In this document: positions 40,936 through 49,392 of the stretch, piece by piece
Layout of the letters: every line of letters starts with the position of its first letter
How positions within the stretch are numbered: the first letter of the stretch is position 1
Origin: Oceanospirillaceae bacterium
GTDB lineage: Bacteria > Pseudomonadota > Gammaproteobacteria > Pseudomonadales > Balneatricaceae
Assembly (NCBI GenBank): GCA_029938085.1
Contig: JAPYOS010000001.1
Location: 248,143 to 312,142 of the forward strand
Length of the DNA: 64,000 bases
Reading direction: 5' to 3'
Translations under genes and position numbers: made by a program
The notes under the pieces: model-generated
What the model was told of the DNA's origin: nothing
Database searches by the model: none
What the model saw: only the letters and a program-made list of their open reading frames with translations

Positions 40936-42282
40936 ATGAGTAAACAACGTGTTGCTATTATCGGTGCTGGCCCTAGCGGCTTAGCCCAACTACGAGCCTT
41001 CCAATCGGCCCAAGCGAAAGGTGCGGAAATTCCAGAAATTGTGTGTTTTGAAAAACAAGACAACTGGGGCGGGTTATGGAACTACTCTTGGCGCACAGGT
41101 GTAGATCAATACGGCGAACCCGTACATGGCAGCATGTATCGCTACCTCTGGTCTAACGGCCCTAAAGAAGGTTTAGAGTTTGCAGACTACTCGTTTGATG
41201 AACATTTTGGCCGCGAAATTGCGTCTTTTCCACCGCGGGCTGTATTGTTTGACTACATTGAAGGCCGCGTGAAAAAAGCCAATGTGCGGGACTACATTCG
41301 TTTTTCCAACGTTATTCGTAACGTGTTTTACAATGAAAGCACCGATACTTTCACGGTCACGGCGGAAGACTTACCCAACCATAAACAGTATGAAGAAGAG
41401 TTTGACTACGTCATTGTATCTAGCGGCCACTTCTCCACGCCCAACGTTCCCGAGTACCCCGGATTCAATCAGTTTGGTGGGCGCATTCTCCACGCCCACG
41501 ATTTCCGTGACGCACTGGAATTTAAAGACAAGGATGTGCTCATCTTAGGCACCTCTTACTCGGCAGAAGACATTGGTTCGCAGTGTTGGAAGTATGGTTG
41601 TAAGTCCATCACCGTGGCGCATCGTACTGCACCTATGGGTTATGATTGGCCCGACAATTGGAAGGAAGTCCCCGCTCTTGAGCATGTAGATGAAACCACC
41701 GCCTACTTTATTGATGGCACGTCAAAGAAAATTGATGCCATCATTTTGTGCACCGGTTACGTTCATCACTTCCCATTCATGCATGAGTCCCTCAAGCTAA
41801 AAACCAACAACCGTCTCTACCCCGTAGACCTGTACAACGGCGTGGTGTGGCAGCATAACCCTAAGCTACTTTATCTGGGAATGCAGGATCAGTGGTACAC
41901 GTTCAACATGTTTGACGCCCAAGCTTGGTACGCTAGGGATGTAGTGATGGGACGCGTCGCATTACCCACCCAGCCAGAAATGCAAGCCGATATCGACGAT
42001 TGGCGTAGCAAGGAAGATGCCTGTGCAGATGACTACGAAGCCATTGCTTTCCAAGGCCGTTACACCATGGAGTTAATGGCGAAGACCGACTACCCAGCCA
42101 TCGATTTAGAAGACTGTAATCAGGCCTTCTATCAGTGGAAGAAACACAAGAAGTTGGGCATCATGACCTTCCGTAACCATGGCTATAAGTCGGCCTTAAC
42201 CGGCAAAACCGCACCTCCGCACCACACTCCATGGAAAGATGCGTTGGATGACTCCCTAGAGAGCTACCTTGGCGACAGTTAA
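40936..42282 (+). CDS. tmm: Trimethylamine monooxygenase
   Basis: A flavin monooxygenase that oxidises trimethylamine to its N-oxide with NADPH and O2, giving marine bacteria nitrogen and energy from methylamines. The 448 residues are colinear with characterised marine Tmm. FAD binding is by [18 protein letters not shown], followed by [19 protein letters not shown]. The FMO signature is [18 protein letters not shown] binding is by [17 protein letters not shown]. Tmm-typical segments include [19 protein letters not shown] and the ending [14 protein letters not shown]. Ribosome site AAAGGTG, 6 bases before ATG. No tdm or methylamine transporter adjoins it. The stop overlaps that of the next, convergent gene in TTAA. 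Confidence 0.95.
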
Positions 42283-44341: not shown

Positions 44342-44366
44342 TCCCCTAGGGTTTTAAACTAAAATA

Positions 44367-44393
44367 AAAAAACCGCCAATTGGCGGTTTTTTT
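44367..44393. terminator. Bidirectional intrinsic terminator between mdh and the amt cluster
   Basis: AAAAACCGCC-AATT-GGCGGTTTTTTT is almost perfectly symmetric, with A-run before and T-run after, 25 bases beyond the mdh stop and 37 bases beyond the stop of the opposing small gene. It can end both transcripts. Confidence 0.9.
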
Positions 44394-44429
44394 AGGTCTA
44401 GACTTTGAGCCTAGTCACAGAGACATCAA

Positions 44430-44600
44430 TTACTGATGTTCAACCTCTGCTTTTTCTTCTGCGTTATAGGACACTATTAGTGGCACTATTAGCATGGCTG
44501 TCATAACCCAAAAGCATACCGCCATACCCATAGGGCTGTCGGCGAAGGTGAAAATAGCTTCTGCACCTTCCCAGCTAGTAATTGGTGATGAATTAATCAT
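44430..44600 (-). CDS. Undescribed 56-residue membrane protein paired with Amt
   Basis: A small gene not previously obvious because of its size. It begins MINSSPITSWEGAEAIFTF with a strong ribosome site (AGAGGA, 7 bases before the ATG) and ends AEEKAEVEHQ. One membrane segment is clear at about 22-44 (MGMAVCFWVMTAMLIVPLIV), followed by an acidic tail. The helix and a ribosome site followed by an uninterrupted frame to a terminator argue for a real gene. It starts 77 bases after the ammonium transporter stop on the same strand, so the two are probably one operon. I do not recognise the family. A small accessory subunit of the transporter is a reasonable guess. Confidence 0.65.
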   Translation of the reverse strand: MINSSPITSWEGAEAIFTFADSPMGMAVCFWVMTAMLIVPLIVSYNAEEKAEVEHQ

Positions 44601-44677
44601 TATACAATCCTCTTGTTGTTATAGGTTTCAAGCCAAGCCTTAACCCGCAAAGGCAAGGCTTAGCTTGAACATACCCC

Positions 44678-45991
44678 TTACTGAGAGCGAATCTCTTCTG
44701 GGTAAGCAATGCCTTCCAGCTCGTGATCCATGCCGTCACGTTGCACACCGTCACCAGCGCGCAGGATGCCCATCTTATTAAACAACCAAGACAAGCCATA
44801 ACCAGGAATGAAGCCAGTAGCAATCATCACTGCCGCGCCAACAAGTTGGCCCGTCATGTTGATGGAGGGGATGTCATAACCGTCCCAAGAACTAAAGCCT
44901 GGGTAACCGCCAAGGAAGATACCTACGGCCAATAAGCCCCAAACACCACACACACCGTGCACAGCAACTGCGCCTACGGCGTCGTCGATGCCCATCTTTT
45001 CGATTTGCTTAGCCGCCCAAGGGCCTAAATAACCACCTGCGAAACCGATAGCAAAGGCCAGTGGTGGATACCACAAGTCAAGGCCAGCAGCGGCAGAGAT
45101 AATGCCACACAAGGCACCAGACATCATCCAGAAAGGATCACGAGTACAAGCGTAACAACCGATGATACCACCAGCGACCGACATTAAGGTGTTAAACGAA
45201 TAAGCCGAAAGGGTTGTTGGGCCACCGTAGATGTTCACCCAACCGCCATTAACGCCGTAATTGTACAACACACATGCGCCGATGAAGCCGAAGAAGCCTA
45301 CTACGATCAGCATTAAACCAGTAATGGTCATTGGTAAACTGTGGCCACGAATGATATTAGCACTGCCATCGGCATTGAACTTGCCAATACGTGGACCAAG
45401 GTTAATCAATACACCTAAGGCAAAGAAACCAGAGATGGTATGTACCACACCAGAAGCTACCGCATCATGATAACCCCATTCAGTTACCAACCAACCGGCT
45501 GGATGCCAACCCCATGATGCTGCCAAGTTCCATACTACTGAACCCAAGATCACCGCCAACACCACGAAGGACGCCATGCGAATACGTTCGATCACTGCAC
45601 CGGACATGATTGAAGCCGTAGTACAGGCAAACAGAGTGAAAGCACCCCAGAATACGCCTGTGGCCTGGTCAGCCATGTTGGGCCCCATGATGGCCGACAT
45701 AGGCAAACCAAACTCGCCCCAAACTGGGTCGTAGGTAAAGCCCTGCCAGAAGCCTAAGTAAATGAGCCAACCAAACATATAGAAAGTTGGAATCATAAAC
45801 GCAAAAGCCAGAATGTTTTTAGTACCAGAGGCCAATGAGTGTTTAACTCGCGAGGCGCCCATCTCATACATGAGAAAGCCCGCGTGAATCAAAATCATGA
45901 TACCGGTACACCAATAATAAAAAATCTCCATGTTGGTCGAGCTAAGCCCTTGCAACGCTTCAATTGCTGCCTGCATTTCTTCAGGAGTCAT
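44678..45991 (-). CDS. Ammonium transporter family protein (divergent Amt)
   Basis: An 11-helix channel-like transporter of 437 residues. The pore landmarks of E. coli AmtB are mostly kept: twin histidines (GVVHTISG and VAVHGVCGVWG), the aspartate eight residues before the first, and the phenylalanines in LFACTTASIMSGA and FFGFIGA. However, the signature WFGFNAGS reads FFGFIGAC, changing the residue at the position of Ser219 in the recruitment site to cysteine. The opening IFYYWCTGIMILIHAGFLMYEMGASR also departs from the usual GLAFFYGG. No signal peptide is seen. No glnK adjoins. Ammonium or methylated-amine substrate is possible given tmm 2.4 kb away. Confidence 0.85.
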   Translation of the reverse strand: MTPEEMQAAIEALQGLSSTNMEIFYYWCTGIMILIHAGFLMYEMGASRVKHSLASGTKNILAFAFMIPTFYMFGWLIYLGFWQGFTYDPVWGEFGLPMSAIMGPNMADQATGVFWGAFTLFACTTASIMSGAVIERIRMASFVVLAVILGSVVWNLAASWGWHPAGWLVTEWGYHDAVASGVVHTISGFFALGVLINLGPRIGKFNADGSANIIRGHSLPMTITGLMLIVVGFFGFIGACVLYNYGVNGGWVNIYGGPTTLSAYSFNTLMSVAGGIIGCYACTRDPFWMMSGALCGIISAAAGLDLWYPPLAFAIGFAGGYLGPWAAKQIEKMGIDDAVGAVAVHGVCGVWGLLAVGIFLGGYPGFSSWDGYDIPSINMTGQLVGAAVMIATGFIPGYGLSWLFNKMGILRAGDGVQRDGMDHELEGIAYPEEIRSQ

Positions 45992-46216: not shown

Positions 46217-48049
46217 ATGTCAGACAAAAACGACATTCAATACAAGGAACGCTCTTGGCTGCAAAATAATGTTAAAACTATTTACATGGCTGCACTATTG
46301 ATCACTTTACCTAGCTGGGGCTGGATGAGCTGGATCACTTTGACCCAAACCAGTGAACAGCAATTACAGCAACAGGTTTACAGCGATATCCAACTGTTTG
46401 CCGACAGCCTCAATAGCGAGTTAGAAAAATATCGCTTTGTGCCCAAAATGCTCATGCTCGACGCTGGGCTGGTCGAACGTACCACCCGGGCGACAAGCGA
46501 CCATTCAGGCATCTTGGCCAACCCATATTTGCAGCACATACGCCAAGCCACCAACGCTGACGAAATCTTCATAGTGGATCCGCAAGGCACCACCATCGCC
46601 TCGACTAAAACTAGCAACATCGGTATCGGTTATCGGCACAGTCCATTTTTTATTGCAGCTAAAGCCGGTAATTCTGGTGGTTTCTTCACTCTCGGTCTAC
46701 ATGCAGGTATTCGCGGGTATTACTTTAGCGAACCTTTGTTTGACCCCACCACAGACGAGGTGGCCGGCGTTATTGTAGTTAAAGTCAATATGGCCCGCTT
46801 GGAGCGAGGCTGGCTCAATAAAGCCACCCCAATGCTGATCACAGACAACTACGGGGTCATTATTGCCTCCAGCACCCCCAGTTGGTTATTTACCAGCCTC
46901 AGCCCCTTGTCAGCTGAAAACAAGCAACAAATACGCCACAGTCGTAAATATCCGATGGTTTCGTTTCCATTACTGCAGACCACTACTCATAAACAAATTG
47001 AGGGTGGCCAAGTGGTTAGCTTACCGAGAGCAGGGTTTAAAAAAGTGCTGGAGGTCAATAAGTTCATGCCAAACTTAGGTTGGACCATCTATGGCCATGG
47101 TAACTTGGCAGCCGCCAAACAAAGCGTGCAGCAAGGTGTAGCCATCTCTTCACTCTTATGGGTACTGCTATTAAGCTTAGCTTATGTGGTCACTCAACGG
47201 CGCTTACAATTCTTGGAAACGCTGCACCGACGCGAAGTCAACCAAGCACGCTTGCAGCAAGCCAAAGACCAACTGGAAACACGAGTGGCCGAACGCACAC
47301 ACGAACTACAGGAGAGCAACCTAGAACTCAAGCAAACTCAACAAGAGCTTATCCACTCGGCCAAGCTCGCGACCCTTGGACAGCTAGCGACTAGTGTGAC
47401 CCATGAAATCAACCAGCCGCTGACGGCTATTTTAACCTCCGCAGACAATGCCGAGCAGTGGTTAGGGCGTGGCCAAGTTGACAAGGCGCGAGACAAATTG
47501 GCACAAATTAAAACCTTGGCCCAAAAAATGGGTCTCATCACCTCCCACTTAAAAACCTTTGGCCGCAAGACCGATGATAAAAATGACTGGATTTGCCCGC
47601 AAGTTGCATTAGACAACGCCTTCGCCTTATTGCAACCAAGAATCAACCAAGAACAAGTGGAAACGGTGATCGAAGACTTATCGAGTTTTCAGGTATTGGC
47701 CAACGACGTACGTTTAGAGCAAGTCTTTATTAATTTGATTAGCAATGCCCTAGATGCAATGCAACTGAGCCAATACAGGCGTCTAACGGTATATTGTCAA
47801 ACAAACGCTACCGCGGTGGAGATTCATTTTTCCGATACCGGCAGTGGCATCGATAATGATCACCTGCTGCAATTATTTGATCCATTTTTTAGCACGAAAG
47901 ATGTTGGCGTAGGGCTTGGTTTAGGCCTTACAATATCCTACAGTATCATTAAAACCATGGGCGGCGATTTGAGCGCCCGCAACTCTGCCACCGGCGCGGT
48001 GTTTAGCATCCGCCTACGCGCCGCCAGCAAAAGCGACAGGAATCTATGA
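46217..48049 (+). CDS. dctB: C4-dicarboxylate sensor histidine kinase DctB
   Basis: Membrane sensor of external C4-dicarboxylates. It has 610 residues: a first membrane helix at about 20-42, a periplasmic double-Cache domain to about 300, a second helix at about 308-328, and a coiled coil (KDQLETRVAERTHELQESN). The histidine kinase core follows: [16 protein letters not shown] is the H-box; NLISNALDAM, DTGSGI and GLGLGLTISYSI form the catalytic domain. It overlaps dctD by ATGA and sits directly upstream of the transporter it would control. Confidence 0.9.
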   Translation: MSDKNDIQYKERSWLQNNVKTIYMAALLITLPSWGWMSWITLTQTSEQQLQQQVYSDIQLFADSLNSELEKYRFVPKMLMLDAGLVERTTRATSDHSGILANPYLQHIRQATNADEIFIVDPQGTTIASTKTSNIGIGYRHSPFFIAAKAGNSGGFFTLGLHAGIRGYYFSEPLFDPTTDEVAGVIVVKVNMARLERGWLNKATPMLITDNYGVIIASSTPSWLFTSLSPLSAENKQQIRHSRKYPMVSFPLLQTTTHKQIEGGQVVSLPRAGFKKVLEVNKFMPNLGWTIYGHGNLAAAKQSVQQGVAISSLLWVLLLSLAYVVTQRRLQFLETLHRREVNQARLQQAKDQLETRVAERTHELQESNLELKQTQQELIHSAKLATLGQLATSVTHEINQPLTAILTSADNAEQWLGRGQVDKARDKLAQIKTLAQKMGLITSHLKTFGRKTDDKNDWICPQVALDNAFALLQPRINQEQVETVIEDLSSFQVLANDVRLEQVFINLISNALDAMQLSQYRRLTVYCQTNATAVEIHFSDTGSGIDNDHLLQLFDPFFSTKDVGVGLGLGLTISYSIIKTMGGDLSARNSATGAVFSIRLRAASKSDRNL

Positions 48050-49392
48050 CCTTACCCACCATTTGTGTAGTCGATGACCATGAAGAAATCCGCAATTCAT
48101 TGGTAGAAATGCTCGAATTGGCGGATTACCAGGTCACGGCCTACGCCAGTGCAGAAGCCGCTTTGCCTCATTTATTGGAGACCTGGCCCGGCATTGTCAT
48201 CAGTGATATTCGTATGCCTAACATGGACGGCTTTGCGTTTTTGGCAGCCTTACAGAAAACAGATACCGATTTACCCGTGATATTAATCACTGGCCATGGC
48301 GATATCCAGATGGCGTTAGGCGCAATTCGCAGCGGGGCTTACGACTTTATCGAAAAACCCTTTCGCCGCGAGCATTTGCTTGAAGTTGTTAAGCGCGCCT
48401 TAGACAAGCGTCAACTGGTGATGGAAAACCGGCATCTAAAAGCCGCCATCGCGGCCCAAGATAATGAGCCCATTATCGGTCAATCAAGCGCCATTAACTT
48501 ACTCAAGCAAAAGATTAGCCGCTTAGCGCAAGCCGATGTTAATACCCTAATCTGTGGCGAAACCGGTACTGGCAAAGAACTGGCGGCCCGGCGCCTGCAC
48601 GAACAAAGCGCCCGTAGTACCGGACCTTTTGTAGCCATCAACTGCGCCGCTTTACCCGAATCGATGATGGAGGCAGAACTGTTTGGCCATGAGGCTGGCG
48701 CCTTTACCGATGCAAAAAAAGCCCGTATTGGTAAATTCGAATACGCCCACAAAGGCACCATATTTTTGGACGAAGTCGAGAGCATCCCACTGTCGCTGGC
48801 AGTCAAAATATTACGTGTACTACAGGAACGTAAAGTCGAGCGCCTCGGTGCAAACCACTCTATCGACATCGATATCCGCGTGGTAGCGGCAACCAAAGCT
48901 GATCTTAAGGCGCTGGCCCAAGAAGGCAAGTTTAGAGAAGACCTTTATTACCGGCTCAACGTGGTTGAATTACATTTACCGCCGTTACGCCAGCGCGATG
49001 ACGACATAATACACCTGTTTCGCTATTTTACCGCCCAAGCCAGCGAAAAATTCAACCTGCCCGAGCCAACACTGTCGCTGCATGTCATTGATACCTTAAT
49101 GCAGCACCCATGGCCTGGTAACGTACGGGAACTGATTAACGTCGCCGAACGTTTTGTACTCACCGATACCTTAATAGACCAAAATACCCTCGCCACCTGG
49201 CAGACGGAAACCGGCAACACCAGCTTACCTGAACGCATGGAGCGCTATGAGAAGCGGCTGATCGAAGAAGCTTTGTCTCAAGCACAAGGGTCTATTAAGC
49301 GCACCTACGAAGGGTTAGGCATCGCCCGCAAAACCCTATATGACAAACTGGCAAAATATAACCTCGACCGCCATCGATTCTTAGATGATTAG
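48046..49392 (+). CDS. dctD: Sigma-54-dependent response regulator DctD
   Basis: Activates dctPQM transcription through sigma-54 when phosphorylated by DctB. The 448 residues comprise a receiver (about 5-120; phospho-aspartate in VISDIRMPNMDGF), an AAA+ domain (about 140-370; Walker A CGETGTGKEL, Walker B GTIFLDEVESI), and a Fis-type helix-turn-helix at the end (IKRTYEGLGIARKTLYDKL). The sigma-54-contact loop, normally GAFTGA, reads GAFTDA. A DctD-like palindrome begins 3 bases after its stop and a consensus sigma-54 promoter 103 bases after it, which supports function despite the substitution. Confidence 0.9.
   Translation: MTLPTICVVDDHEEIRNSLVEMLELADYQVTAYASAEAALPHLLETWPGIVISDIRMPNMDGFAFLAALQKTDTDLPVILITGHGDIQMALGAIRSGAYDFIEKPFRREHLLEVVKRALDKRQLVMENRHLKAAIAAQDNEPIIGQSSAINLLKQKISRLAQADVNTLICGETGTGKELAARRLHEQSARSTGPFVAINCAALPESMMEAELFGHEAGAFTDAKKARIGKFEYAHKGTIFLDEVESIPLSLAVKILRVLQERKVERLGANHSIDIDIRVVAATKADLKALAQEGKFREDLYYRLNVVELHLPPLRQRDDDIIHLFRYFTAQASEKFNLPEPTLSLHVIDTLMQHPWPGNVRELINVAERFVLTDTLIDQNTLATWQTETGNTSLPERMERYEKRLIEEALSQAQGSIKRTYEGLGIARKTLYDKLAKYNLDRHRFLDD

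Follow-up and report, generated by a model that had tools for sequence, protein, structure and literature searches.

For three decades, research on the Amt/Mep/Rh superfamily has treated its transporters as stand-alone homotrimers controlled mainly by P-II proteins. In the 64,000-nucleotide stretch of Oceanospirillaceae DNA analysed here (the window), an Amt gene is followed by a very short open reading frame, which raises the question of whether this frame is a gene at all and, if so, what its product does beside the transporter. The original prediction had described a frame of 56 residues lying 77 bases after the transporter and just before a terminator, with a strong ribosome site and one clear membrane helix, and each of these elements was borne out, including both coordinates (Table 1).

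Table 1. Coordinates of the features discussed for the amt region of the window
Feature	Position	Strand	Properties	Evidence
Trimethylamine monooxygenase (Tmm)	40936..42282	+		PDB 2xve/2vq7, 5gsn, 6kbw, E 1e-176 or better
Intrinsic terminator	44365..44394	-	13-pair hairpin and T-run; ends the amt-small unit	
Small single-helix membrane protein gene	44430..44600	-	56 aa, stop codon included in the coordinates, ATG start	ORF, homologs, purifying selection
Shine-Dalgarno-like AAGAGGA	44608..44614	-	7 nt before the ATG of the small gene	
mRNA stem-loop, amt-small spacer	44626..44669	-	15 pairs	
Amt of the paired clade	44678..45991	-	437 aa	PF00909, E 1.2e-58

The frame, whose translation is MINSSPITSWEGAEAIFTFADSPMGMAVCFWVMTAMLIVPLIVSYNAEEKAEVEHQ, encodes a real protein under strong purifying selection. 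Homologs occur at 82-95% identity in seven congeneric genomes, dN/dS within the genus (NG86; 28 pairs among eight distinct sequences) ranges from 0.014 to 0.106, and the variable sites of the eight genus sequences are distributed over codon positions 1/2/3 as 9/8/39. That the frame arose by chance, or goes untranslated, in the 3' part of the amt transcript is a reading which the small size and the missing database family might suggest. It was rejected on dN/dS and on the codon-position bias of the variable sites; given synonymous-biased change, a motif kept over two classes of bacteria and a conserved ribosome site, the probability of such a frame is practically negligible. Pfam and NCBIfam scans with both variants of the small protein returned no family (no Pfam match at E <= 10), a profile search of the PDB retrieved only cornichon at chance level (E 0.1-0.7), and no relatives of the small protein were found in viral contigs or phages.

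Hydropathy analysis reveals a single hydrophobic core, with its centre at residues 27-43 (mean KD 2.5), and the AF2 model places a helix at residues 23-55; modelled alone, the protein reaches a pLDDT of 67-68 at its N-terminal motif. Across the family, the small proteins measure 54-106 residues; conserved in them are the N-terminal motif W...F/YxF, a single membrane helix and, after the helix, a glutamate that never varies (E48). This glutamate is what stands, family-wide, of the acidic tail that had been proposed earlier: the tail AEEKAEVEHQ is of mixed charge, and acidity is not general among the relatives. Lysine and arginine are nearly confined to the part after the helix (on average 0.16 before the helix core vs 3.30 after it, in 67 small proteins). 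The N-terminal aromatic segment is therefore predicted to lie on the periplasmic side, where the Amt vestibule is, and the tail on the cytoplasmic side (N-out/C-in topology).

The gene also appears to be equipped for translation from the amt transcript. Its ribosome site reads AAGAGGA in seven of the eight aligned congeneric sequences and AAGAGAG in the remaining one. Upstream, the stem-loop in the spacer has an energy of -32.4 kcal/mol in the window (z -5.2), with z-scores of -3.3 to -6.2 when six genus spacers were folded singly, and compensatory changes affect eight of its 15 pairs among the eight congeneric sequences. Because no T-run stands behind it, this stem-loop is read as an mRNA element, possibly acting in mRNA stability or translation coupling and perhaps fixing the proportion in which the two products are made. 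The terminator is common to the amt-small unit and the convergent malate dehydrogenase gene.

The association of the small gene with the transporter is strict. All 91 sampled Amt loci of one clade, from Gamma- and Alphaproteobacteria, carry the small gene (a total that allows for one locus drawn twice), and across the family it lies 2-113 bp behind Amt on the same strand. Among 116 genomes of the window's family, a small-protein profile (A1) built from the first 13 relatives marked 41 strong places in 40 genomes, and an Amt search of the same 116 genomes returned 41 genes of at least 484 bits, one of 312 bits and others of 130 bits or less. The strong Amts and the small genes, 41 of each, lie at adjoining coordinates in the same 40 genomes, amounting to a co-occurrence of 40/40 vs 0/76 genomes (Fisher p 4.5e-32), and the 312-bit Amt (G014) is paired with a small gene of a second type. 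Sampling across the class gave 19 Amts of at least 43% identity, each followed by a small membrane ORF, of the first type in six cases and of the second in 13. The second type follows the pattern MSTxxxxxWAxDxAExGAIYPFxGxE...WxGWHxxQ...E and shares the tryptophan and the glutamate with the first, although the profile comparison of the two (hhalign E 2e-4, probability 47%) suggests their relatedness without strongly establishing it. The small gene likewise accompanied five of five clade Amts in a phylum sample and 26 of 26 clade Amt genes, in 24 of 120 genomes, in a Roseobacter-family sample, two of whose loci were scored by an adjoining profile hit instead of the hydropathy filter. The idea that any Amt has such a neighbour was ruled out by 18 control loci with a different Amt gene from these genomes, none of which carries such a small ORF.

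Conservation beside Amt genes, which the original prediction had set as its test, was thus seen in every case, and elsewhere the small gene occurs only with an Amt remnant in one genome (G724); alone among the small genes of the genome samples, this one lacks a complete Amt. At that locus (L205, 6486-6918) the Amt is cut to its last ~76 residues, while the adjacent small gene and MgsABC/GmaS are intact. In Parasedimentitalea marina pW43C (L122), the Amt before an intact small gene lacks a CDS annotation and gives a partial match only, which suggests that this Amt gene is broken. No natural Amt-small fusions were found among the loci checked; long open frames resembling them turned out to be upstream read-through. 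Independent annotation is in line with this pairing: in RefSeq/GenBank, plasmids from Ruegeria, Ponticoccus, Thioclava and Pseudomonas aeruginosa RW109 list an "ammonium transporter" or "ammonia channel" with a "hypothetical protein" immediately after it.

The paired transporters themselves form a distinctive group. The window's Amt scores 199 bits against PF00909 (cut-off 23), placing it in the Amt/Mep/Rh superfamily, and 167 bits against TIGR03644 (probable ammonium transporter, marine subtype), an Amt subgroup of marine bacteria whose curated cut-off of 514 it does not reach. In a quick tree, which came with a long-branch warning, 72 paired Amts are separated from 22 others by a branch of support 100. 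In E. coli AmtB numbering, S219C and W212F are present in all 73 clade Amts vs none of 21 others, and N216 is L, I or Y in the same 73 (I in the window); S219, W212 and N216 are retained in all 21 others. The twin-His pore H168/H318, the Phe gate F107/F215, D160 and W148 are kept in 73/73 clade Amts, and most also have a C-terminal tail RVPxxxExxGLD like that of E. coli AmtB. The changes represent a clade difference and not an exclusion from the superfamily. In AmtB, S219/W148/F107 constitute site S1 and F215/W212/H168 site S2, and the substitution S219A in the E. coli protein increases methylammonium uptake (PMC10433425). The substrate-site changes could also be clade drift rather than the mark of a changed substrate. 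Residues 1-25 of the paired Amts form an N-terminal extension predicted as a helix that runs on into TM1 (residues 3-46 in an AF2 read-through model), which is a candidate contact for the small protein.

The gene content around the pair indicates that it is usually located near genes for methylated-amine or ethanolamine catabolism. Tmm lies ~2.4-2.6 kb from the pair in all eight congeneric pair genomes (~2.4 kb in the window). Within the window's family, Tmm (at least 60% identity) is present in 37 of 40 pair genomes vs six of 76 others (p 1.7e-20) and within 15 kb of the pair at 29 of 41 loci; for EutB the corresponding figures are 29/40 vs 3/76 and 21 of 41 loci. DUF1989-GcvT proteins near the pair are, by their domains, probably Tdm, and in the genus a long DUF1989 frame is found in eight of nine genomes with a paired Amt vs none of six without. 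At least one ethanolamine locus (L012, identified by eye) has its own permease, which weighs against the explanation favoured below. Also in the window, divergent from amt, a dCache-domain histidine kinase and a sigma-54 response regulator (46217-49392, plus strand) adjoin a probable TRAP-type transporter; this system could sense an amine or a dicarboxylate. At six further loci (L155-L157, L165, L173 and L174), a second Amt clade stands without a small gene beside MgsABC/GmaS of the N-methylglutamate pathway, in the same genomes, implying that two different Amts serve methylamine clusters.

A rival view is that the small protein is a co-regulated neighbour acting elsewhere in the membrane, for example on an amine-oxidising enzyme or the envelope, and making no contact with Amt. 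It agrees with this view that AF2 showed no predicted contact: in the natural in-frame read-through (Amt, spacer and small ORF) the Amt fold was confirmed, and the small-protein motif had a pLDDT of 39-49 and no docking signal, in what was a poor test, the model being a monomer with its linker on the wrong face. The surroundings themselves argue otherwise, as the neighbours vary between Tmm, Tdm, DmmABCD, MgsABC/GmaS, EutBC and none of these, whereas the Amt is constant. The small gene tracks the Amt and not any one enzyme, and Mgs/GmaS loci with other Amts have none, making a mere neighbour very improbable.

On published maps, amtB is placed in the methylated-amine cluster of Ruegeria pomeroyi (PMC5520151), and amt recurs in clusters for TMA, DMA and MMA (PMC7574528). 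R. conchae and Ponticoccus both have a clade Amt, with the small gene behind it, between DmmD and MgsABC/GmaS, and the amtB of the R. pomeroyi cluster very probably belongs to the same clade. The small gene was not found mentioned in papers on that cluster, where amtB alone is named (PMC5520151). The numbering from gmaS (SPO1573) to dmmD (SPO1579) leaves space for one gene besides MgsABC and amtB; from the locus numbers, we infer this to be the small gene.

That neither the partner nor the gene order varies, and that the vestibule is altered, points to an auxiliary subunit which stabilises Amt or shapes its substrate site. The small protein is probably an obligate auxiliary subunit of one amine-associated Amt clade; we infer that it binds the Amt and that the substrate is NH4+ or alkylammonium. 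The proposal of a new regulatory or stabilising subunit, made before any comparison, thereby gains the support of the pairing, as far as sequence can tell. The protein would be made from the amt transcript, in a ratio set by the conserved hairpin of the spacer and by a strong ribosome site of its own, and would insert with its N-terminus outside and its C-terminus inside. Its helix would pack against the Amt trimer, bringing the aromatic periplasmic segment (W10, F17, ADSP) to or near the vestibule, where this segment, together with S219C, W212F and N216L/I/Y, may stabilise the carrier or tune its substrate preference. The likely duty would be to move small ammonium-type cations in amine catabolism. 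Two duties fit, namely alkylammonium uptake as food or recapture of the NH4+ freed by amine breakdown; the choice is not firm, with the substrate-site changes leaning to alkylammonium uptake and the EutBC loci fitting either. The more specific proposal of a two-component permease for alkylammonium rather than ammonium, carrying mono- or dimethylammonium and perhaps trimethylammonium or ethanolammonium, is tentative and somewhat doubtful.

A close precedent for a gene adjoining Amt whose product binds the transporter is GlnK-AmtB of E. coli (PDB 2nuu/2ns1), in which the two trimers match. GlnK, however, is a soluble P-II regulator that plugs the cytoplasmic face, whereas the small protein has a single membrane helix instead of a soluble ferredoxin-like fold, an unrelated sequence and no match to PF00543 (Pfam, E <= 10). 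Unlike GlnK-AmtB, its Amts mostly lack a linked glnK: GlnK is near only one of 19 pair loci, which also holds a second, GlnK-linked Amt, vs about half of the other-Amt control loci. This scarcity would suit a regulator that stands in for GlnK, inhibiting or gating Amt according to nitrogen status, and small proteins can mediate Amt inhibition, as sP36 exemplifies (PMC10714827). Such a role is nevertheless unlikely, considering that strict one-to-one pairing and adjacency suit a subunit better than a switch, that a P-II gene is still in the genome (10328-10666 in the window), and that most clade Amts retain the AmtB-like C-terminal tail.

The comparison with sP36 of Methanosarcina mazei deserves attention, because the original prediction knew of no small accessory subunit for Amt. 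As regards membrane subunits this holds, none having been found; small proteins that act on an Amt are not entirely unprecedented, since sP36, the only such case met in the literature, binds AmtB1 (PMC10714827). This archaeal 61-residue protein binds AmtB1 and GlnK1 as a hexamer, is cytoplasmic under nitrogen limitation, moves to the membrane on ammonium upshift, acts through GlnK1 and is tied to the absence of glnD (PMC10714827). Both proteins are small and sP36 acts on an Amt; they are set apart by description only, sP36 not being a membrane-helix partner encoded with one Amt clade, unlike the small protein with its predicted helix.

In outline, the small protein resembles known transporter subunits. 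KdpF with KdpABC and MetS with NSS transporters are small single-helix proteins dedicated to one transporter, whose stability or specificity they serve. AcrZ/AcrB, MgtS/MgtA and MgtU/MgtB likewise combine a transporter with a small single-helix protein that stabilises it or tunes its specificity (PMC10710835). The small protein differs from all of these in having an Amt as its partner, no match to any Pfam or NCBIfam model (and none to the curated families of MetS, AcrZ and KdpF at E <= 10) and a conserved extracytoplasmic aromatic segment before the helix. Searches of two reviews revealed no membrane subunit for Amt/Mep/Rh (PMC10433425, PMC10710835), nor was one for Amt found in the literature, in a search thin on subscription journals. 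Small subunits have precedents among other transporters, whereas one that serves the Amt superfamily, linked to a single clade and to the breakdown of amines, is new as far as we could find.

The strict pairing with a clade of altered substrate site offers a testable handle on how the selectivity and stability of Amt are tuned. In marine bacteria the pair accompanies Tmm, Tdm, Dmm, GmaS and EutBC, and it therefore also bears on the entry of methylated amines, a climate-relevant nitrogen pool, or on nitrogen retention. Annotated as a "hypothetical protein" at most, the small gene is likely to be missed by pathway studies. Were the clade an alkylammonium permease, it would supply a way, so far missing and perhaps one of several, for methylated amines to enter marine bacteria, and as a two-component permease it would be the first member of Amt/Mep/Rh to have a membrane subunit of its own.
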